This document shows, in pieces, positions 23,160 to 56,790 of a DNA stretch of 64,000 nucleotides. Each line of letters begins with the position of its first letter. Position 1 is the stretch's first letter. The position numbers were made by a program, and so were the translations under genes. This DNA is from Angiostrongylus vasorum. Its lineage: Eukaryota; Nematoda; Chromadorea; Rhabditida; Metastrongylidae. The stretch spans positions 883,001-947,000 of the forward strand of contig JADANN010000443.1 of the NCBI GenBank assembly GCA_018806985.1, written 5' to 3'. The notes beneath the pieces were generated by a model that was not told the DNA's origin, made no database searches, and saw only the letters and a list, made by a program, of their open reading frames with translations.

Positions 23160-23345
23160 CAATCTACCCAGCCAAAACACCATAACCAAACAGAGAAAAT
23201 GCTAAGCCAAGATTTCTTTTGGTTTAGCATTTTCTCTGTTTGTTATGGCGGTGTTCGGCTGGGTAGATTGCGGTCAACATGACCTTTCCGGACTCCGAGG
23301 AGGGCGAAATCCGCCGAAACTTCAGCTTGTTAGTAAATAAGGAAA
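23160..23345 (+). repeat. Long hairpin joined to a Penelope-like terminal fragment
   Basis: Arms at 23160-23205 and 23224-23270 are nearly perfect inverted repeats of about 46 bp with an 18-base loop. The right arm runs directly into the hammerhead-like block ctccgaggagggcgaaatcc and gccgaaacttcagc (23291-23326). This is a mutated form of the CTGAAGA...GAAAC core seen elsewhere in the window. Confidence 0.7.
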
Positions 23346-23349
23346 TAAA

Positions 23350-24105
23350 ATAACATCTCGTGTTTCCTTAACAAGAATGTAAGGGATTATTTAATCAATC
23401 CCGAGGTTAATAGAAAATCCGCTATGAGAATTGCAAGGAGAATTGACTCGACCAGCATAAGAAGATCGTAAAGATCGTATTGGGTCGGAGTTAGAGAGAC
23501 ACAAAAGATGTGTGAGGCGACGGAGCAACAGCAACTTCAGGAAACTGGTCCGTCGCGCCTTCTGTTCGAGATTGCTGACTGTACATCTTCATATCAATGC
23601 GCGCTCCTATTGTGCTACAAAAAGCAAGCGGTCGTGAAGGGGGTTAAACTCTCCACCCTTATCACTATGTCGTTGTCTAATAGTTTTTGATTTTATTAGT
23701 TCCCGAAATTGTCGCATATCACATTTTTGGGCTACTGTGAGATCGGAACTGAAATTTCGATTGGCATAGTGGTTAAGGATTTGGAGAATTTCATCCGAAA
23801 ATATGCAGAAATTGATATCTACTTCGCCATTTGGATCTAGGTGTTTAAAGGATCGCTCTAGGACAAGTATGTGATCGTACGCCTATTTCTTATTCATCAC
23901 TCTTATGTAACCTATCTGGAGTAGCTTTGAAAAGGCGTCGATCTTAAAGTTCATGCAGGCTCCATGCGATCTTTAGACGGTAATTCTACCAAGAAGACGG
24001 TTCCATTTATTTTGCCCATCATTTTCAACGAAAGATACGCAAATAATTCTTCATGTTTTTGTTGAGCAAAAAGTGAGGTGCTATTTGTTTCTTCATTACG
24101 ACGAC
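23350..24105. other. Unassigned AT-rich stretch
   Basis: No supported gene. A short piece near 23435-23510 (gaattgactcgaccagcata) resembles the interior of family C SINEs but is too short and diverged to annotate as a copy. Confidence 0.4.
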
Positions 24106-24180
24106 GCTTACGTTTGGACGGATTTCTCCTTCCTCAGAGCCTGGAAAGGTCAAATTGACCGCAATCTGTCCATTGAAACG
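24106..24180 (-). repeat. Penelope-like terminal fragment
   Basis: The minus strand contains gcggtcaatttgacctttcc and aggctctgaggaagg, the first half of the hammerhead-like core with its usual upstream flank. The GAAAC half is lost. Confidence 0.55.
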
Positions 24181-25124
24181 GTCCATAACTAAACTAGGTC
24201 CTTCACATATTCACTGCTTTCTATGAGCCTTCCACTGAATAGTCATGTGGAGACCAACCGCACAGAGTTCACATGGAAGGGCAAAGTGTCTCTCGCACCA
24301 AAACAACGTTCCTAAATCCCTCTCTCCACCCACACGAAAAAGGATGCTTGTAAGAAACGTGTTTCGAACAGCCACCAACGTGTGCACAGGAAGAGGACAG
24401 AAAGAGGAATCCAGAAAATTGGCGCGGGAAATAGCCATTTCAAAAGGCTACGAAGCTGTAGCTTCTCGGGATAGATGTAAAGGAAAATCCAGTCCCCCCA
24501 AACCACAACTCTAGCTATAATAAGGTCCCGCTTACTCTGCACTTTATTTCAAGCGGAATAACTGCAGCTGTAAAACGCTGTTTAACAAGGGCCGGTCTAG
24601 AGAATTCGGTAACAGTAATGGAAATACCATCGAGCACTCTAAGATGCCAGCTAGTTCGCAACCGCCTGTATGATCGTCTACAGAGGACGTAAATAGTTTG
24701 TCACAACGGTATGGTGATTGCATGAGTTCAGGTACGGTTTGTCTTGTATCTTGTAAAACAGACGGGGACGAATACACTGGCGAAGCGGGAACATCACTCT
24801 GCGTTTGTATAAAGAACACCTAGTCGGTAAATTTAAGGTTAAACCGAATACTCCACTACGCACGCATAGTGCCCGATGGCATAACGAGGAAGATTTTGAA
24901 GTAAAAGTCGCTATCCTCGAAATACCTCAACCTATTTTTTCTCATCTGGGCCACGCAGATTTCTCACTCATGTAAGACTCAGTGCGGCTGGTCTCCACCA
25001 AATAACTGGGAGGCTTACAAAGAACAAAACGGGATCTCAAAAAACCAACTTTCCTTCAATCTCGGCATAATCAATCAATATCTGTTCTTTCGTCCATAAG
25101 CGAAAAAGGGGTTGATAAAGAGGT

Positions 25125-25570
25125 TTTTGGGCCTTTCGGCGATTCGGATAACGTTTCGAAGTCTTCGTCTTTGTCAGAGTCGATGATCCGAGTCGATGGT
25201 CCACAGTCTTTCGTACACTCGATTCGGTTTCGTCGTCGCCGTATCAAGTCGAATCTTCTTCATTGGAACACTGCTCGAATGAGGCAACCTCACCTGGCGA
25301 TGTATTTTTAAACATGACCAGTTGCTGGTGCTAGCAATTTCTGGTTGAAAATGAACGAAGGAATAGAAAATGGTGAGTGTTTAGAAGAAACTGTTTGTAA
25401 TGCGAATGAGGATTTATGTATTAAGTCCTATCTGATGAGGTTCTGAAAGTGGCTGGCTAAATAGACTGCGTGTCAATATGACCTTCCAGGTTTTGAAAAA
25501 GGAGAAACCGCTGAAACGTCAGCTATTGTGAATGCATAAATGCCATAATAACAACCTCGTGGTTGCTCTT
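25125..25570. mobile_element. Penelope-like remnant, two opposed hammerhead-like blocks
   Basis: On the minus strand, 25125-25300 carries gtcagagtcgatgatccgag and its family context (a caaagacgaagacttcgaaac core in reverse). On the + strand, 25465-25530 carries ccttccaggttttgaaaaag and aaaccgctgaaacgtcagc. No reverse transcriptase frame lies between them, so this is a short non-autonomous or deleted copy. Confidence 0.55.
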
Positions 25571-26295
25571 CAAGAAACATAGTGAAGTAGCTTATTTTAA
25601 CTACAAAAGGGATGCTGGCACCATATCTAAAAAGTTTTCAGCTGCTACCCGCAGTCTACATGAATATGCGTCCGTACTGACGAGCTGGATTTAATACTAC
25701 TCAACAGAAGTAAACAATTTGCTGCTTACATCGTTCGGTTTCAAACGGTAAGAACAAGGATGTGTTCGCATCGTGATGAGCAATGCTACGTGAGTAAGGG
25801 GAATCTGCAACGGAAATTTACTCAGAGCTGACCAATTCATGATTGTGTTTCGACACAGTTTTCGTTTTATTGGGAGTTTCCAGTACTCCTTATAGGTATA
25901 TTTTTCTCAAATCGATATAGAGCGTGAAAGTTCCAACGACGCAAACTAGTAAAATATCATATGTCACATTTTCTGTGACACTAAAATCTACCTACACAAT
26001 TACAACGGACATCGTTTCTCGCACAAGAAAAAAATGCTCATCCAGTTCGCGAACTGTTGGACAAAGACGAACAGTTCCAAGAGAGATAAAGTCTTTTCCA
26101 GCGAGCTGCGAAACAAGTGTGGGTACGAGAATAGGAAGGACGAAACATACGCTCGGTTGGCATCATCACGGCTATAATAGAGATGATATTAGGTAGAATC
26201 GTACTGACGTAGCAGCATCTTATATTTGCATACACTATGAATTCGTGTACTTACGGATTTCAGGTAGGTACGTGGTGAGCGCGCCAAGGGACGTG

Positions 26296-26575
26296 TGTGG
26301 TGCAGTGGTCGGAGGCGTCCTGCAACACACACGTGGAATTGATCCCCGCACCCATGGCCCACCAATCCTTCCATCCCTCCGGGGTCGGCAAATTGATACC
26401 AGACTTGTCTGGGAGGATAACAGCACTGGCTCGTTAGATCGATGGGCCACCCCGAGTCATTGTAGAGGCCAGATATGCATTCAATCACCTCCAAACGATG
26501 CTTAAAGAAGTTGGATGCATGGCTCGTCCCTCAGGGATTTATCAACGCTGAGAACTTTATCCTTTCATCCTTTAC
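26296..26575 (+). repeat. SINE family A, full-length
   Basis: Head tgtgtggtgcagtggtcgga (A box TGGTGCAGTGG), B-box region gtggaattgatccccg, core with accagacttgtctgggagga, 3' block agatatgcattcaatcacct, tail ctttatcctttcatccttta. One of the best full copies in the window. Confidence 0.9.
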
Positions 26576-26719
26576 GCCGAGACCGATAAATTGACTAAAC
26601 AGAAGCTTATTTGAGCTCTTATTATTCAAGAAGTGGACTCATCATGCATAGGAATCAGGGTGACAGGTATAACAATTAGACTTGTCTATACTACGTTTTT
26701 CGTCAATACAGTAGTAATA

Positions 26720-26905
26720 TAAGCATGAAGGGTGAAGCGATCAACGTTAGTCAGTTCTCGAAGGATGCGGCATGCATTCGAATTCATCAAGTTTCGTAAA
26801 AGTGAGTGTATTTGACCCATACAATGACTTTTGATAGCGTACTGATGTATCGAGTCATTGCTCCTATCCTCAAAAAAAGTCCTGCACCAATTTGCCTACA
26901 ACAGA
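26720..26905 (-). repeat. SINE family A, 3' half
   Basis: Reverse copy lacking the tRNA head: catgaagggtgaagcg tail region, gatgcggcatgcattcgaat, and a core remnant reading gtcctgcaccaatttgcc. Confidence 0.65.
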
Positions 26906-27257
26906 GGGGTGAAAGATTTGGTGGACATGGAACGTAGGATCCTTTATTCCTTACTGTAAACACAGTAAAGATAATCAGATAAGGCGGCATTATCTTCCCA
27001 AACCGTTCACAAGCTCATTCCAACGAATAGCTTTATTACTCGAATAGTTGGACAAATACTTCAATCTTCAGTTCGGCCAGTCTGCCCTGTGCAAGGATAA
27101 ATGGACAACAATTGACTTTGATGTCTAAGTGTTAACGAGTTTTGTCTGCTCTGATCTCAGATCTGTATTCAATGTGACCTGCTTCAAAAACAGTGCATGG
27201 TGAAATTGATTAAGATATTAGAAAAATAATATGAAACTCTGGACAGTTCAATGCTGT

Positions 27258-27545
27258 TTGAGGGCTCGTGTAGCGCAGTGGTCTGAGGAGCCCTGCAACA
27301 CACACGTGGAATCCATCCTTCCGCCCTAGGCTCACCATGCCTTACTACCCTGGGATCGGCAAATTGGTACCAGACTTGTCTGTCTGGGAGGAGAGCAGCA
27401 CTGGCTCAGTACATCGGTAGGCCATGGCGGGTCATTGTAAAGGCCAGATATGCATTCATTCACCTCCAAACGATGTTTAATGAAGTCGAGTGCATGGCGC
27501 ATCCCTAAGGGATTGATCAACGCCGAGAGCTTAGTCCTTTTAGCT
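27258..27545 (+). repeat. SINE family A, full-length
   Basis: Head ctcgtgtagcgcagtggtct with A box TAGCGCAGTGG, then cacacacgtggaatccatcc, core accagacttgtctgtctgg (a 4-base tandem duplication), 3' block, and a short tagtccttttag tail. Confidence 0.88.
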
Positions 27546-27559
27546 TTATAATGCTCTTT

Positions 27560-28977
27560 TAACAAATGTTATGGTTTTCGAGCTTTAACACGGTTAAATT
27601 TCAACATTTCATGGTAAAGGCGATAATTTGACTTTTTTCACTGTCATTTACCCAGCATTACGTTCTTATTTGATGTAACATCTGGCAATGATGGATTAGA
27701 TGACACCTTGCACTTTTTTACTTTCAGTCCTTCTTGTCATAAATAAATCATTCACGAGCCATCCGTCCCATCGATATGTTTCATCTTTCATAGAAACTCC
27801 AACTTGAATCCTATTTCATTCCACTTATGTCTTATGTGATACAAATCTGGAATGGATAGTTTCCGATTACTAGGTTTTCTCGAATGAGAACTTCTAAACG
27901 TGCACGATTTCACTGACATTTTAAACTCATTACAATGTCAGATCTTTTATCCGCGAATCTCTACTGAGTTCATTTTTCTCATTCATCTTGTCGGCAGACT
28001 ACCACCATGGAGTTTTCATAGAGGTTGTTGTACTCAAATAATTTTAATAGAAAGCGAGTATTAGCGCCTTTAGCACTTTTCCCATCTGACAGCTGTTACT
28101 TGTCTTTCTTCTCTGCAGTTCCAAATTCCATATGTCCTGACAACGGGCACTCGTCGGATGATGTCCTTCTGAAGGAGATTTCTTACTTTACGACTGGGTT
28201 TCTTTTAGGACAACAGTGATTCTTTACATAGGTTTGATTTTTAGCGGAGGTTTTAAATGCACAAATATCAACATTTTCATACCGAACCTTTACTAAAAGT
28301 AGTCCAATGAACGCAGAGCTCAGGGAGACATTCGTAATTACTTCAAGCCAAAAACAGTGTAAAAAACACGAGAACAAAATTACACTTCGAGTCTCTGAGT
28401 GATTACCATTGCACTCTGGAAAAAGTTTACTGGTGTTCATTCGAGTGACTTGGTGATTAACAGGACTGCAGATGGCATTTCAAATGGAATGCATAGGTCT
28501 TCTTTTATTCGTTGTGCTGTGGCTTATTCAGGAAATCTTAGATTCGCTTCCATTTTTCCCGCAATTTTTTTTGGTACAAAGTCATTTATCCATTCTGCTT
28601 CTGGACAGAAAGCACCAAAGCTGGCTCATCTGGTCAAGTTGAAAAATATTTATTCAGAGCGAATATATCTTCTTCTTCTCACATGCCTCTTGGACTTTTT
28701 TCCTTGTTTCCATGGGAGATAGAAAAAGGGGCGTGTAGCTAAGACTGAGCGAAGTAATGGTGTCGAGAAGAAAGAGTGATGAGATATTAGGTTGTTGGGA
28801 ATTAACTGTAGGATTTCATCCTGTGTTCTTTAAAGTGGCTTATCTCAGCTCAGAACAAACTTCGTTATTCGAAATCAAAACAATTCGAATCTACAAGTTT
28901 CTATCTACAAAAGACGTTTATTTAATGCACTGAGCGGACCAAGCCAACTACACTACCTCTTGGAATTCTCTCAGCAA
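27560..28977. other. Gene-poor stretch with weak open frames
   Basis: A 107-codon + frame at 28399-28722 and an acceptor-preceded segment, ctctgcag at about 28119 leading to VPNSICPDNGHSSDD, could be exons. They do not link into a model and match no family I know. No repeats were recognised. Confidence 0.3.
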
Positions 28978-29240
28978 TTTGATACGAAACTTTTACGGAC
29001 AAGGCTCCATTCGTTCCACAAAGGAGGGTAATACTGTGTTGAGGAACCGGGAGCGATTTATTGGTGCTGTACTAGGACTCCAGGGAGATTCAACTCGACC
29101 AGCACCCAACACTCATAAGGGAGACAAAGGTTCAAGTAAACCCGGACCTAGTTGCAAAATCCGAGTGGCTTCCTGGATGAATATTGCAAGAAAACAAATC
29201 GAGTGAAAGAAGTGCTGGGCTCCGCATTGAGGGTCAGGTC
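28978..29240 (+). repeat. SINE family C, 3' portion
   Basis: Shared family C interior: gattcaactcgaccagc, then ttgcaagaaaacaaatcgag and gaaagaagtgctgggctccg. This 3' end is also present in the copies near 48.5 and 49.6 kb. Confidence 0.65.
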
Positions 29241-29999
29241 GTATAAATTAATCAAAGAAAGTGAAAACATCTGCTATAGAAATAATTTGAAAATATTGAT
29301 GTTTTTAGGTTTTAGATATACCCTGTTCTTCTTGAGATTAGTTCCAGTAAAAGGATAGTTACCACTTTGAGATTTGAGATTCTTAGAGTAATTAGCGAGG
29401 CAAGTTATTCCAAATACCGATCGGAAAGAATTACAATGTTGTACAGCTGGTCCGTGCTACTACTACCGTTTTTCTACCAGAGGGAAGAAAATATCTGAAT
29501 CCCAGCAAGATTTTCCTCCATTTCACCGACCATATTAATAAAATGACTTAGTGTCTTTCGAGATACCAAAAGAAGGTTTATGGACGAGGATTTTCAGGCG
29601 ATTGCTTTCGTACTAAGCTGGCAGCTTAATCAAATCAGATACGCAGCTTATTCTCTAGTTTCAATCTCACAAGACCCAAGTCTACATCGCGAAGAGTTCT
29701 TTTCGTCTATGACGTTTTCGCGTTTTGCTGAAATAATACGATGTACCAGGTTCGTGCCTTTTCGGGATTAATGGAAAAACGCTAGTCAGCATCTTCAACT
29801 GCAGTCAATTCATGCAATCATATCATATTACCAAACTCGTTACTTCCAGTTCTTCTGCGGTTGTATGACACTTCGTTCTGAAAATGTTATCAACCTGGTA
29901 TCTACTCAAGAAGAAAACACGGACTTGTTGAACAACGTCGAGCTTCATAGAAATTCAGACCTGGGAATTTCATTCTGAATTCTTGCATCATCAGATCGT

Positions 30000-30190
30000 T
30001 TGTATATAGATCTATTGATACGACGACGAAGATGCTACATCGAGAAGACAACGACTGTGGGCCATCGAACTAGCATCATCGACTTTGAAGAAGACGAACA
30101 AGTGGAAACGCAAGCCGAATAAACCTTTTTATCATCCTCGTGTCAGTTTAATAATCCAGAAACGTATTGATTGCCAATGCCAAGGTTAAA
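30000..30190 (+). repeat. Penelope-like terminal block, second subfamily
   Basis: Contains tttgaagaagacgaacaagt, then ggaaacgcaagccgaataaa and cctcgtgtcagtttaataat. This is the subfamily in which the helix II segment is GACG...CGTC and the distal end is an AACCTCGTGTTAGC-like run. Confidence 0.6.
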
Positions 30191-30520
30191 CGACGGTGGA
30201 TTTCAAAATATTGATTTGCTGTAGATTGCTTTCAATCCCCACTTGGTCTTCCACAATGAGTCCCTTCATTGTTTTTTAAATGCGTTTCCATTTAAATGCG
30301 GGCTTTTAATATTGGCGTAAATCTTCGCAAACCACCGATGGTTTATTGCATTCAGTTCTATCACATTGCACACAATGCATACGAATCTCTTTAACTCTTC
30401 AAACGACTTTAGCATGTAGTCGTTATAAAAACCGCAAACTCTCGTTTCTTTCTGTCATTTTATCATCTTCATCTCATCCTTCCATAAATGTTAGCGCTGA
30501 ATGAAATAGGAGAACGCGAC

Positions 30521-30560
30521 TAGCATAGCATAGCATAGCATAGCATAGCATAGCATAGCA
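30521..30560 (+). repeat. Pentanucleotide microsatellite (TAGCA)8
   Basis: Eight uninterrupted copies of TAGCA (tagcatagcatagca...) follow gaacgcgac. No coding frame is associated. Confidence 0.97.
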
Positions 30561-30689
30561 CACGCTCTGCAGTACTTTAAAAAAGCTTATGAAATGACAA
30601 TAATTTGATTCCGATGCAATTTCATTTTTTCAAGCAATCACATTGCATGGCTTTTCAATTGTTTACAATTCCTTATTTTTTCTTTACGT

Positions 30690-30790
30690 GCAGCACAGTA
30701 GCTAGAGGTGCCGTGCGAAACAGACGTGTTCTTGGGTTCGACCCTGCGCACTTAGCCCATTCTTACGCCAAGAAAAGTTTGATCTCCAAA
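30690..30790 (+). repeat. tRNA-derived SINE fragment
   Basis: cacagtagctagaggtgccg followed by ttgggttcgaccctgcgcac gives a tRNA-like spacing of A- and B-like boxes. The 3' body is lost or unrecognisable. Confidence 0.45.
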
Positions 30791-31103
30791 TCCTATGATA
30801 CGACGATTTTTTAAAAACCTTTCCATTAGCTGGAAAAAGTATCCTAACTATGAATTTTCAGTGCAGGCCCCGAAGCAGTTCACATTTTTTGAACTGTCGG
30901 ACTTCACAACTAATTTTTTTCTTTTTTTTCTTTCGGAAGGTACATCGACATTGTTGGACTGTACTGCGTAGGTTCATTTTTTAAAAAGGGTTACGAGTGG
31001 AAGGTCGAACTTCTCAGCTTTGCAGGTCCTGTTAAGGAGTGAACTTCCACTGATCACCTAAGAACACCTCTAAAGAGGTGCAACCTATTTAAGACGGTAC
31101 TTT

Positions 31104-31590
31104 ATTGGATTGTTATGCTAACACGAGGATAATAAAGAAGATTTTTTGGCTAGCGTTTTGATGTCTTCGTCTTTAGCAGAGCAGATGGTCCGAATCGTTG
31201 GCCCACAGTTGTTCGTCTTCTCGATGTGGTGTCTTCGTCGTCGGATCGAGCCGGATCCCTAATCAGTGGAGCACCACTCGAATGAGGCAACCGGATTGTT
31301 AAGATCTTTGATTGTTAGGTTTTCCTAGATTGTTATGCTAGCACAAGGGTGATAACGAAACGAAGGAAAAGAGTTGTCGAGTGAGACTGCCTCATTGGAG
31401 CGGTGCTACACTGAGGATGAGCCGTCTCAGTACGACGACAAAGACGCCACAGCGGAAAGATGAACAGCTGTAGACCATCGAGTCAGCTCTTCGGCTCCGA
31501 TGAAGAAGATGACGTTAAAACGTCAGCCGAACAAATTTTTTTATGAAACTCGCGTTAGCTTAACAATCCAAAAAGGTATTGATTATTACT
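31104..31590. mobile_element. Penelope-like element remnant as an inverted pair
   Basis: Left arm (31104-31297) and right arm (31389-31570) are reverse-complement relatives of about 190 bp, both with the second-subfamily core (gatgaagaagatgacgttaa on the right) and a common outer end (ttgttatgctaacacgagg). A short third copy of the outer end lies at 31329-31350. The centre is only about 90 bp, with no coding frame. Confidence 0.65.
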
Positions 31591-32191
31591 AGCTAGGTTA
31601 AATGACTGTCGCTTTGAAAATTATTTCGGACAGTGTTATATTGTTAGGAGATTAGAATCAAAGGAGAATTGTGCCCTAGAGCTAGAATAAAAGCGAGATA
31701 ATAATACATATTTTATGCTGTTTTTCGTGCTTAATAAAGTCGTTTAGAAAGTTTCTTGATGAACAAGGGTTTGCATAGCGTAGGGATTGGCCAGGGATTG
31801 TAACGCGTGGCTACAACGTCTTATTGAATTATGCGACTACACAGTGGTGTCCAAGAATCTTGAATAGACATGTCCTTCAGTTAAAAGTGTTAGATGGTAG
31901 TTCAATCACTACCAACAGCTCCTTTTGACTGACTTATTCAAGTAAATCTGTGCTTGGTAGCTGTACTTTTTCGTTGGAAGAAAAGGTCAGTTTTAATAGA
32001 ACCTTAATTTCGTTGGACTTAACGTTTGGATAAGTGTCTTTTCCTCTTAGCTGTATGGGTACATTTGTAACACTGAAAGGCAGAGTTCTCCATACCTACT
32101 AAAGTGTTTTAGAGATATTTTAAGAACCATCTTTCACTAAACACCGTTAAGAATTTTCTACATGATTGGGCTTTACATGAGGTTAGTATAA

Positions 32192-32530
32192 AACTTTTTA
32201 TTCGGCTGATGTTTCGGCGTCTTCACCTTCCTCTGCGCCGTGAAGCAATGTGCCTGCAAATGAAGTGCCTACTGTTGCAGGACTTATTGCCAGCAAAAAG
32301 ACGATCAAATTAGATGGCGGCAATAGATCATCATGCGTTTTGTATACAAAGGACACTGTCTAGTGAAGTTCCTCATTCGAACTGGGTTCCAGTTCAGCGC
32401 ATGCGACTCGATGGGACAACGAACTATCACATGGCGAGGCCGACTAGCTGTCCACCACCGGCTCCAATCAATCCGGCTCTGAAGAAAACGAAGACGTCGA
32501 AGCGTTAGCCGAGCAGAAATTTTTTAACAA
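32192..32530. mobile_element. Penelope-like remnant, inverted hammerhead-like blocks
   Basis: The left block on the minus strand (ttcggctgatgtttcggcgt) and the right block on the + strand (ggctctgaagaaaacgaaga, then cgtcgaagcgttagccgag) face each other about 240 bp apart. The outer flank aacaacctggtatcagctca matches the family end. Confidence 0.6.
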
Positions 32531-32800
32531 CCTGGTATCAGCTCAGTTATGTAGCAAATTGTTGTTCTAGAGATATTTTACATGCTTAATTTTTCCATAA
32601 TTCATCTATGACACACTGATTCGACAAAACAAATGTAGTTATTGGTTCGACCACGCACTCTCTGAGAACTAAGCATCTCATGGTTCCGGGATCGGCAAAT
32701 TAGTACCAGCTTTGATCGAAACGATAAAACAAATAGCTTAATAATCCCCTGCTTTCTTGATATGACTAAGTGAGGCTATTGCCATACTCTTTATCCATAA

Positions 32801-32880
32801 AAGCTGACGTTTCGGCTGATTTAGCCTTCTTCAGAGCCTGGAAGGGTCAAGTTGACTGCAATCTATTCAGTCAAAAAGCT
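32801..32880 (-). repeat. Penelope-like terminus with near-complete hammerhead-like core
   Basis: On the minus strand, 32840-32801 reads ggctctgaagaaggctaaat then cagccgaaacgtcagctt. Elements: flanking helix I (GGCT with AGCT/AGCC), CTGAAGA, helix II GGCT/AGCC, and GAAAC followed by GTC. An extra A sits between CTGAAGA and helix II. Confidence 0.65.
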
Positions 32881-32994
32881 CCAACAACCACAGCGGAAAA
32901 TTCACGAAATTAGCTCTCGGTCGAATTGGAAATTTTAGTTTCGGTAAGTTCTTCGCCAGCTGAAAATCGGCTTCTGGAATTATTGACTCAACAC

Positions 32995-33115
32995 ATCGGT
33001 TGGCCATTACAAGTCAGTCAAAGGTATAGACTAAGGCTATGTGCATTCAATCAGCTTTATGATGCTTAATGGCTTCGTATGCACGCCGCATTTCTATGGG
33101 ATTAGCCAATAAAGG
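32995..33115 (+). repeat. SINE family A, 3' fragment
   Basis: acacatcggttggccattac, then gtgcattcaatcagctttat and a gcatttctatgggattagcc end. The start of the + frame at 33069-33359 lies inside this fragment. Confidence 0.6.
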
Positions 33116-33119
33116 CGCT

Positions 33120-34400
33120 ATATACCAAACGCTTACCGTTGTCACCTTTAACCCTGTTAAGAATTGTGTATTTCGAACCAGCATCACCTATAACCTCACT
33201 ATCACGAGCACAGTCAAGTTGCCCATTCGACACTGCTCACTTGAACCAAATCAGACAGTCATAGTTACCTCTCCAAGTTTTTCCGTGTACATTGATGTTA
33301 CTGTTACTGTTAATGATTTACTGTTTACGAGCTGTGTGGTAAAATGTCAAACTGCTTAGCTTCAATTACTGTGGCAAGGTGATGAGCCCCACTCTTTGAA
33401 TTACAGTTTATTATGGGCTTTTCTGACACAAAAGGTGCAGCAGAACAAATTAAGTTTGTGATTTTTTTAAGTTGCAAATTCTATAAAAATTTAAACTATA
33501 TATTATTATACAAAATTTATCAAAGGACACTGCCGGGTGTGCTTGCCTCATTCGTGCTGTGTTCACTGAAGGAGATCCCTTTCGGTATGACAACGAAGAC
33601 GCCACATGGAGCTAACGAAGAACTGTGGACCACCAACACTAATCATCGGCTCTGATGTTGACGAAGACATCGAAACGTTAGCCGAAATGAACAATTTTTT
33701 CAACCTCGTTTAAGCTCCACAATTTAAAGACATGTTTATTATGGGCTTTTCGTTGGAAATTTTCCACAGTTGCTACTGACTTCTCTGTTTTGCGGAACTT
33801 GGCAAAGAGTCTAGATTGTGTAATTCTTACTTAATCGGATTTGCTGACGGCATGAATTACACGGTCGGAAGCACACCCATCAACCGTTTCTCTTTCTCGT
33901 CAGCCACGTCAATTAGGGTAATCTACTTCGTTGATGGTGGCATTCGTCAATTTTTTCTTCGTTTTTTTGAGCGACTTTTATCTAGTGTCGCAGAATTGCA
34001 ATCCACCCCCGCCCTGCAGCTGGCTGATATCGTCTTCGAGCGCGTTAGCCCATCATGTTTTTGGTATTATATACATTACCCTGGAGAGATCCCATCCTTT
34101 TTTATAGCCTCCGGTTGCATTTCAGTAGATCCTATAAAGATAAATGTGAGGTGTCCGAAATCCGCTATATATAGTCACTACAGTGGCAGATGAAAACATT
34201 GGCCTTTTTTTCGATTTGATCCTGTTTTTTCTTAAGTGTTATGGCAACTCGAGCTACTCTCATTTTGTTTTCCTTTTCCCTCTCTTCTAAGTCATTACCC
34301 AGATTTTCTGAGTAGAGGTTTGGAGAGACGATGCTATCTAGTGAGGCAAAATCTGCTAGCGATATTAATAATGTCATAGAAGTCTTTCTCTTTCACTTCA
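33120..34400 (+). other. Region with two + strand open frames and one Penelope-like block
   Basis: Frames at 33069-33359 and 33816-34193 are open for 96 and 125 codons and encode Cys- and Thr-rich peptides, but splice sites do not join them. A second-subfamily Penelope-like block (gctctgatgttgacgaagac) is at 33535-33725. I do not annotate a gene here. Confidence 0.3.
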
Positions 34401-52647: not shown

Positions 52648-52810
52648 TTTGATAAGCTAACATAAACCTGTTAGGAATCCTTGTTGTAACCAACATTTCT
52701 GCGCTTTCGCCTTCTTCAGAGCCGCAGCGATTTGAGTCGAATGTCCAGAGAGTTTGTTTCTCACGATGAGAGTCTTAGTAGTTGCATTGAGTCCAATCCG
52801 CTGGAGACCA
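52648..52810 (-). repeat. Penelope-like terminal block
   Basis: ttgataagctaacataaacc outer end, ctgcgctttcgccttcttca and gagccgcagcgatttgagtc in reverse; the CTGAAGA part is intact, the GAAAC part mutated. Confidence 0.6.
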
Positions 52811-54330: not shown

Positions 54331-54737
54331 CTATTTTCCTGGTAAAGTTTCCATCTGTTGTTGCACATCAACGCTACCCAATAGGATGCGTTAGGTTGAA
54401 GAACATAAGAGCTCTAAATTTTTGCTATGTGAAACATTTTTATGTCCTTGGCGCAAGCGTAGCCCAACGTAGCTCATTGACTTCTGCCGTAGAGTAGGTT
54501 TATTTCTGAAATATCGTACCTTTTTCAGCTAGACTAACATCGCAGGTAGGTGGACAACTAAACGCTCATCATCTGGGAGCGCCCATAGCCACAGTGGATA
54601 AATTAGCTAACCTCTTCTACACATTTTCCAATAATTAGAAGCGGTAGAAGGCCAATTTATCCACGCAGTTGATTTTGGAAAGTACTAGTCCAGTATATTA
54701 ATAGAAGCAAGAATGCGTCGTTTTCTTATTCAGAAAA

Positions 54738-55270
54738 CGCGAGGTTGTTATAGAGCATACAGTTAATTCCATAGATAAACACACAATACAATACAACAGT
54801 AGCTGACGTTTCGGCAGTATCGCCTTCTTCAGAGCCTGGAAGGGTACACTGATATGCAATTTACTTGGTCAAAGGCTTCAGTAACACACACATGCTATAT
54901 AAATGCCAAAAAAGCCTACAATGAAAGCAGGGAGCAGTGCCCAGAGGTCACACGCGACCTGGTCCCTCATCTTCGCATCAATTTCTGATGGGTGGTGTAG
55001 TCATCAACCATATGCGACTATAATCAGCTGTTCTAACGTTCCCTCATTGGAAGTCATAAAAAATAGCGGTGAGTGTTTCGAGAAGCTGTTGATCATGTAA
55101 TTTCCATAGAGTTTTTCGTCTTTTTGTGTTATTGAAGCGTTTGGCGTAGTAAATTGTATGAGTATACCCTTCCAGGCTCTGAAGAAGGCGATACTGCCGA
55201 AACGTCAGCTACTGTTGTATTGTATTGTGTTTTTCTACGGAAGTAAATGTATGCTGTATAACAACCTCGC
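54738..55270. mobile_element. Compact Penelope-like unit with inverted termini
   Basis: Arms 54738-54850 and 55159-55270 are inverted copies of over 100 bp. Both contain an intact core: cgaggttgttat outer end, (a)caatacaatacaacagtagc, and ggctctgaagaaggcgatac then tgccgaaacgtcagct. The interior of about 300 bp has no long frame. It is the cleanest such unit in the window. Confidence 0.75.
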
Positions 55271-55399
55271 GATTGCTGAACAAGAAAGCGGCGCATTCAT
55301 ATTCCTATGCCGAGGTTAACGGAAAATCGATGCTCAAAAGCAAGAATATTTATGTCTACCGGCTGATGACAGCTTTTCAAGAAATTTTTCAAGTAGCTA

Positions 55400-56790
55400 T
55401 CAAATGGACCTTCTGTTAAACACATGGTCTTCCTCTTTAAGCCCACTTGATAGCTAGTTAACACTAAGAAGCCGTTTGACCGTCTTCGCCTTAATGGCAA
55501 ACCACTTCATTCACATTGGTCAACTAGCTTTTCTTATGGTCCATTAACGTTTCATGAGAAACTGGAAAAATTAAAAAAAAAGCTAGAAAAATTCTTTTAG
55601 AATGGAACCCGGTTTTTCGCAGGAGATAAGGGAAAGGTTTCCACCATCATTGTCTCACAGAAGTAAGTCGTCATATTTGTCTTTAACGTAGAAATTTCCA
55701 AGTGAGGTTGTATTACGGGTTGTTTCGCGGAAAAAAAATCACAGCTGGGTATCAATAATCTATCACTTCACAATGAGCGGATGATTCTGCAACAAATTAA
55801 CTCCAGGGAAGGCGGGACCCTATTCGAGGTTTCAGACCACGTCGAGCTCGAAGCCAGTAGGTCTGACGCTGTTCCTCATCTATAGGAGCGACGACGATTG
55901 CTCTTTGAGTTTTCATTTCAATAATGGCATAGCGTGAGAAGACCACTCTATTGACATTGTTAGATGGTCAGTGTTTAACGTGGATTTCTATTATATTCCC
56001 AGGCACGGAGACGATCGCAACGTTAATTAGCATGTAACCGTTTTCTTTTCGTTCTACTTCCGTCATATTTTTTCTCTTTGGCTCGTATCAATACGATTTT
56101 ATTTAATAAGCTACTCGTTCTGCCGTCTGGTTACTAAACTATTCCTAATTGCCATACTCGTAACATCGAAGTGAAGCTGTTACTTCTTGTAGGAAGTAGT
56201 ATTAGAGCACAGAAATTCTCCGAATTCGGCCATCGTTGGTACTTCTCATGCTGATCGCGATGGTGCCTCTCCGACAAAAACTGCAGCTAACTTTCATATG
56301 AGAACCCAAATATTAGAGCAGCACTTCGGCCCTAGGTTTTCCGCAGAATCGGCAAGGCTGTAGTGAGCTACGTGAACACCTGTCAAAACCACTTTTGTTC
56401 TTGCTGCTTTCCTATGGACATTATTTCCCTAGGGTTTCCACTTTATACCGAAATAATGGCTTCGCTGCCATCTGATCTCGGCGGGTGCTACTTCTTCATT
56501 TAGAATGCGCTTAGAAATATCGCCTCGAGTGTTTGAATACTCAGATGAACATAGCCTCAAGCCACTGTATCTGCGAGCGAAAATTCCTTGAGAGGAACAC
56601 GTGCAGTATTTCTCAATTGTTGAGTTCCACAGATCCCACCTATTATCGTTTTGTATCGACCTCTACTTGCTTTTTTAATAGAAAAATGATATTGGTTATC
56701 CTTATCGATGTTAAGTGAAGACCATTCTATATAAGTATCTTGCTAGATGAGAGACAGGAGAAGCGAAGGATCCGCATGATGTGGTGGTGA
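55400..56790. other. Unassigned stretch
   Basis: AT-rich, no supported gene or recognised repeat. Confidence 0.35.

Follow-up and report, generated by a model that had tools for sequence, protein, structure and literature searches.

A head-to-head Penelope-like element insertion in Angiostrongylus vasorum with a hammerhead motif in each arm

In a 64,000-nucleotide stretch of the Angiostrongylus vasorum genome (hereafter the window), we found a unit that in all likelihood is one complete insertion of a Penelope-like element (PLE), cut down to its 3' end, in which two cDNAs, probably primed from the two sides of the target, were joined head to head, each with a hammerhead motif (Table 1). Taken alone, the unit is a truncated PLE copy of an ordinary sort; PLE hammerheads, inverted pseudo-LTRs (pLTRs) and tails have already been published, and it is a new example of a known thing. 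Its value is that of a clean specimen in which both ends and the target-site duplication are present and the two hammerhead cores are intact. Similar composites in this genome bear, as a set, on the way PLEs finish integration and on the reason for the inverted orientation of their pLTRs; they offer a countable prediction of one tail per insertion.

Borders and parentage of the unit

The 10-bp sequence AAGCAAGAAT flanks both outer ends, and the unit is therefore one complete insertion. The border at the left copy of the duplication is ambiguous by four bases, as the terminal GAAT of AAGCAAGAAT fits the end of the element too. The two arms form an inverted repeat of ~178-188 bp. DNA homology of the right arm to other copies begins at ~54899 and can be aligned up to 55331; the final few bases before the duplication are unaligned. 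An earlier note on this DNA had described an inverted-terminus unit of ~530 bp without coding capacity at 54738-55270. The inverted termini are indeed there, but the real unit is larger and carries duplications; likewise, the lack of coding capacity holds for the unit as a gene, but both the end and the start of a PLE open reading frame (ORF) lie inside it.

Table 1 Features of the unit and other elements in the window (positions are those of the window).
Feature	Position	Strand	Description
Whole unit	54711-55337		head-to-head composite of two 5'-truncated PLE pieces, with target-site duplications on both sides
Target-site duplication, left copy	54705-54714		10 bp, AAGCAAGAAT
Target-site duplication, right copy	55338-55347		AAGCAAGAAT
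Left arm	54711-54888	-	tail-less PLE piece, 5'-truncated and inverted; reference coordinates run from 1979 to 1804
Hammerhead motif, left arm	54797-54838	-	predicted cleavage 3' of GTC, between 54805 and 54804
Inner head-to-head junction of the two pieces	54889-54898
C-terminal codons of the PLE ORF	54890-54988	+	last ~30 codons and stop, ...YINAKKAYNESREQCPEVTRDLVPHLRINF*
Right arm	54899-55337	+	direct PLE 3' end: ORF end, pLTR, hammerhead, ORF start, tail
Hammerhead motif, right arm	55173-55214	+	predicted cleavage after C 55206
Tail, right arm only	55299-55337	+	contains PLE start codon 55307-55309
Hammerhead variant (example)	32800-32840	-
Hammerhead variant (example)	33646-33685	+
Hammerhead variant (example)	32473-32512	+
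Hammerhead variant (example)	25144-25183	-
Hammerhead variant (example)	23289-23329	+
Repeat shared with L035	26295-26565
Repeat shared with L035	27267-27541
Repeat shared with L035	42999-43258
Repeat shared with L035	44314-44557
Repeat shared with L035	6789-7005
Repeat shared with L035	9596-9876

The whole genome (280-Mb assembly, 468 contigs) was searched with 54701-55308, which gave 95 match rows (40 of 4328 candidate places scored). Among the 40 best rows, 38 match just ~199-608 of the query, that is 54899-55308, in one orientation. At least one hammerhead core was present in all 30 excised loci, the window unit being one of them. In the two loci examined closely, L032 and L034, the right-arm sequence comes after a reverse transcriptase (RT) ORF. 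Pfam detected only RVT_1 in the ORF pieces of these two loci, and GIY-YIG was not detected by it; the L034 piece contains the stretch CGDEYIGETGR, read by eye as GIY-YIG, and GIY-YIG (PF01541) was found in 27 of the best 120 of 169 protein relatives (54-68% identity). Among the same best 120 of 169, the top match shows 79% identity and is followed by Ancylostoma and Necator proteins at 64-68%; the highest named identities, reaching 84% across 59% of the query, belong to Angiostrongylus costaricensis and A. cantonensis, with other Angiostrongylus matches at 54-83%.

The two ends of the ORF could be placed by protein comparison. The C-terminal codons in the unit match residues 558-587 of 587 of P0005, an Ancylostoma RT protein (blastp against the best 120 of 169 protein relatives, E 1.6e-4), and the ORF start was confirmed in L032 by a match to residues 1-60 of P0003 (68% identity, E 1.8e-26). 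A start at the ATG ~30 nt past the hammerhead was considered and rejected, the frame that matches the relatives beginning at the ATG in the tail. In PDB, a sequence search yielded nothing stronger than E 0.011, all matches being weak and to RTs of the group II and retron types. Judging by its relatives, the parent element would be a PLE with a GIY-YIG endonuclease. The Penelope-like origin put forward in the earlier note is thus borne out by the C-terminal codons and by the similarity of the unit to an RT-bearing PLE and to the pLTR of that element; the unit also has the target-site duplication and the tail.

Similar architectures have been described for Pen2a_Av of the rotifer Adineta vaga (PMC3846280) and PAc of the anole (PMC11167929), which, in the available text of these papers, share with the present family an RT ORF with GIY-YIG relatives, pLTRs, a head-to-head inverted pLTR and, at one end, a tail containing the first codons of the ORF. 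For A. vaga PLEs, the same source describes inverted pLTRs with an optional tail on one of them and target-site duplications of 8-10 bp, compared with 10 bp here. The hammerhead lies near the ORF start both in PAc and here; its cut site is 26 bp downstream of the start codon in PAc, whereas here it is predicted 100 nt upstream of the ORF start. Unlike Pen2a_Av and PAc, this copy retains only the last ~440 bp and a 178-bp inverted piece, and it probably belongs to a nematode family.

Head-to-head composites and the priming of the two arms

To describe the composites, a rule replaced our by-eye list of 21, in which 12 shared ends of at least 8 nt compared with 5 of 418 mismatched pairs. The rule gave 29 composites with both ends within the loci (the excised loci and the window), 13 others cut by a locus edge having been dropped; these 29 still include one wrongly bounded case (L032 4084-5120, whose true right end is 8097), two overlapping L050 entries and decayed copies, and may include allelic duplicates. 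Shared ends of at least 10 nt were present in 15 of 29 composites and in none of 806 mismatched end pairs; at a threshold of 8 nt the figures were 15 of 29 and 8 of 806. In the remaining 14, the ends do not have 10 nt in common.

The reference position of each outer end decided whether it was counted as lacking a tail (1960-1992) or having one (1998 or beyond). One tailed and one tail-less end were found in 21 of 29 composites (12 no-tail/tail and 9 tail/no-tail), and in six more a tailed end is combined with an unclassed one. Two are tailed on both sides (L032 and L052), and in these the plus arm continues into the ORF instead of stopping. No composite among the 29 lacks a tail on both sides, a count that has to be read with the fact that loci drawn with a tail-containing query could hide such cases. 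The 13 composites from loci free of that query bias comprise eight with one tail, one tailed on both sides (L052, where this is not a true end) and four in which one end could not be classed (L049, L062 and two in L050). The inner ends lie more than 50 nt apart in 25 of the 29 composites and at most 10 nt apart in four, where the inner end of an arm running past the start of the 2-kb reference is a bound only.

The following origin of the unit seems most likely. The PLE protein would make a staggered double-strand cut, and each cut end would then prime reverse transcription of PLE RNA, the start sites being internal and not the same at the two ends; one site would give rise to the tailed arm and the other to the tail-less arm. 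Both cDNAs would stop early and then be joined head to head, and gap filling would produce the 10-bp target-site duplication. A PLE protein is indeed described as cutting and extending both strands, with internal start sites (PMC11167929). The available text of that paper reports no difference in start site between the top and bottom strands in vitro, and the one-tail pattern is therefore not directly predicted by that work.

The most serious competitor is that the inverted structure arose not from two primings but by fold-back self-priming on one (antisense) RNA, as was proposed for the Penelope elements of A. vaga, where head-to-head is the commonest inverted form in the account given by PMC3846280. 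The four composites with inner ends at most 10 nt apart would suit such a process. However, fold-back would be expected to leave equal outer ends, which is at odds with one tail and one tail-less end in 21 of 29 composites; the inner ends of most composites are far apart, and the duplications fit a double cut. We consider fold-back unlikely, and the pattern of tails and inner ends appears to favour two separate primings at different start sites over fold-back of one RNA. A stricter version of two-sided priming, to which we give somewhat less than even credence, is that the ends of the double cut are always primed at two RNA positions, so that each complete insertion has exactly one tailed and one tail-less end. 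If that were true, inverted pLTRs would be the normal mark of two-sided target-primed reverse transcription and not of fold-back priming; in a copy-rich genome this rule can be checked by counting.

The hammerhead motifs

Both arms contain GGCT-CTGAAGA-A-GGC(GATACT)GCC-GAAAC-GTC-AGCT and are identical over 42 nt. The pattern CTGANGAN{6,20}GAAACGTC has three matches in the 64-kb window, namely the two arms and 32806-32834 on the minus strand, and none in 100 dinucleotide shuffles; the third exact core is absent from the earlier note, whose hammerhead-like motifs in the two arms are nevertheless real. The type I layout with a nearly absent helix III that it proposed is also what we see: the conserved core CUGANGA / GAAA / UH and helices I and II are present, helix III is missing, and one extra nucleotide separates the core from helix II. 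Helix II pairs as GGC/GCC, as claimed, but can be extended to 4 bp (GGCG/UGCC), and helix I pairs as CAG.GCU/AGC.UA.CUG in the covariance-model alignment. The extra A after CTGAAGA, likewise pointed out earlier, occurs in both arms and is usual in three PLE families of this genome: the nucleotide is A in 40 of 43 distinct motifs, and GAAACGT(C/T) is retained in 38 of 43.

The four pairs of helix II form in 160 of 172 cells over the 43 distinct motifs compared with 32-71 when slid by one or two places, the core letters and the 13-14 spacing being fixed by construction. For covariation, we aligned 20 motifs belonging to two further families in the genome, neither of them that of the window unit; 18 of 38 fetched stretches that did not match the strict core pattern were left out. 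In this alignment 91.9% of cells pair, compared with 9-41% in slid controls. The covariation score was 0.315 compared with 0.183 in shuffles, none of 500 being as high, and 16 cells show two-sided change compared with 6.5 in shuffles, none of 500 reaching 16. The number of pairs with two-sided change (3, shuffle mean 2.8) and of pair types (7, compared with 8.8) did not exceed the shuffles, and each of the three two-sided changes probably goes back to a single event between these families.

A covariance model built from these two families found both arms (42.8 bits for the left arm, E ~1e-7; E-values are rough) and, with them included, 14 places in the window at E < 0.005. The Rfam models, which the earlier note had named as the check on its reading, were silent: no hammerhead was found in the whole window at gathering level, nor at E up to 10 in 54600-55400, where five other families appeared at E 0.8-4.7, far under their cut-offs. 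That check was therefore negative for Rfam, but the model from the genome's own motifs matches both arms. The silence of Rfam presumably reflects that its models need helix III, which is missing from these motifs.

For the 42-nt piece from 55175, the minimum-energy fold consists of helix I and helix II. In the predicted fold of a 60-nt piece, helix II is kept, the core CUGA pairs with UCAG and helix I does not form, and the predicted fold of two 60-mers did not show a hammerhead dimer; activity would thus not be backed by folding software alone. ACGU, the sequence standing where helix III would be, is palindromic and so compatible with two copies pairing as a dimer instead of forming that helix. 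Minimal PLE hammerheads reportedly cleave as dimers, if the title of a 2017 study by Luense, Weinberg and Breaker is followed. PLE hammerheads without helix III are described in PMC6155905 and PMC7761336, the latter stating, in its available text, that they may act as dimers. The need for dimers suspected in the earlier note is thus likely, given the palindrome at the position of helix III and the review PMC7761336. In the living element, the hammerhead would presumably cut tandem PLE transcripts, with two copies pairing through ACGU, perhaps with the help of the PLE protein.

In the minimal type I PLE hammerheads (Cervera & de la Pena 2014; Luense, Weinberg & Breaker 2017), the CUGANGA...GAAA...GUC core, helices I and II and the lack of a helix III loop are the same as here; judging by the descriptions in papers that cite them, the motifs of the three families here may be set apart by the extra nucleotide, nearly always A, before helix II. 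Comparison of these families at the sequence level suggests that a hammerhead with this extra nucleotide and with palindromic ACGU for helix III has been kept over PLE divergence. Among the titles returned by a literature search, none concerned nematode PLE hammerheads, and the matching ones dealt with schistosomes and human-genome ribozymes. Bacterial and archaeal contigs (257 billion bases) were scanned with a 14-base motif, and the at least 118 stretches obtained are uninformative on PLEs, the number expected by chance being estimated to exceed this.

An improbable alternative is that the hammerhead-like sequence does not cleave and was kept for its codons, as a promoter or for protein binding. 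In L032 the motif is crossed by a frame open from stop to stop, Rfam is silent, the extra A sits beside the core, the 60-nt stretch is predicted to fold otherwise, and the anole PLE ribozyme is reported as not needed for insertion in vitro (PMC11167929, available text). Against this, three pairs have changed on both sides between two families while the core letters were kept, and the motif, lying upstream of the ORF start, is non-coding in the frame shared with the relatives. No translated hammerhead was found in the first 80 residues of the relatives (best 120 of 169).

Recurrence of the inner junction and other features of the window

The earlier note had suggested that the unit might be a non-autonomous PLE-like or retrozyme-like element. 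For such a family, a query of 68 bp across the inner junction (54858-54925) found two places, the window unit and C443:1057356-1057423, 97% identical (2 of 2 candidates scored; for repeats, such counts are lower bounds). This C443 relative (L035:4996-5614; C443:1056995 to ~1057570-1057613) lies ~119 kb away on the opposite strand; its flanks differ, its tail is on the other arm and it has no clear target-site duplication. The differences in flanks and tail arm imply that neither place arose from the other by simple copying of DNA, and the composite may have been copied once through RNA. With a longer query C370:330125-330259 (L052) was found as well, where the match across the junction has 76% identity; the resemblance of this locus to the unit is 77%. 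These recurrences are what a non-autonomous, retrozyme-like or miniature PLE family of ~600 bp, spreading as this unit through ribozyme-cut (circular) RNA, has in its favour. However, the copy number speaks against it, other composites have other inner breakpoints and L052 continues into the ORF; recurrence of the junction does not make a multi-copy family, and what we see is a single insertion with its own duplication, one close place and one 76% relative.

The arrangement of the ribozymes is also unsuitable for a retrozyme. Metazoan retrozymes, as described in the available text of PMC7229834, resemble the unit in having type I hammerheads in a short repeat without its own ORF, but they are multi-copy, with RNAs of ~170-400 nt. 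A retrozyme would be expected to have same-strand hammerheads in direct repeat, whereas here the motifs are inverted in a single insertion. Each strand bears one sense and one antisense ribozyme, so that two sense cuts are lacking and no monomer can be excised as in a retrozyme. The unit RNA is predicted to form one long hairpin (-315.9 kcal/mol; mean of 20 shuffles -160.2) which pairs the ribozyme with its own antisense copy and would bury it. A retrozyme-like cycle is not expected from such a fold, the ribozymes in the inverted unit are probably bystanders, and we regard the existence of such a family as very unlikely. A MITE or foldback-type DNA transposon bounded by long inverted repeats, which the ~180-bp inverted arms and the target-site duplication might recall, has practically no probability, given that the right arm is the PLE 3' end elsewhere (38 of 40 best rows, with the RT ORF adjoining in L032 and L034), the arms are unequal, the tail is one-sided and the inner breakpoints differ between copies.

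Besides the two arms, the covariance model marks twelve further hammerhead-variant places at E < 0.005 (rough values) within 23289-33685 and 52686-52725; they seem to be remnants of two or more further PLE families. A second dispersed family, at 33560-33742, has helix I UCGGCU/AGCCGA, helix II GACG/CGUC and a triplet that is mostly GTT; a genome search with it gave 44 match rows (40 of 1807 candidate places scored), and by its hammerhead we take it as a candidate PLE pLTR. Searches of the window against a phage collection and for tRNAs gave no match. Another dispersed repeat, away from the unit, is common to the window and L035 at 77-85% identity, and a perfect eight-copy TAGCA microsatellite occupies 30521-30560.
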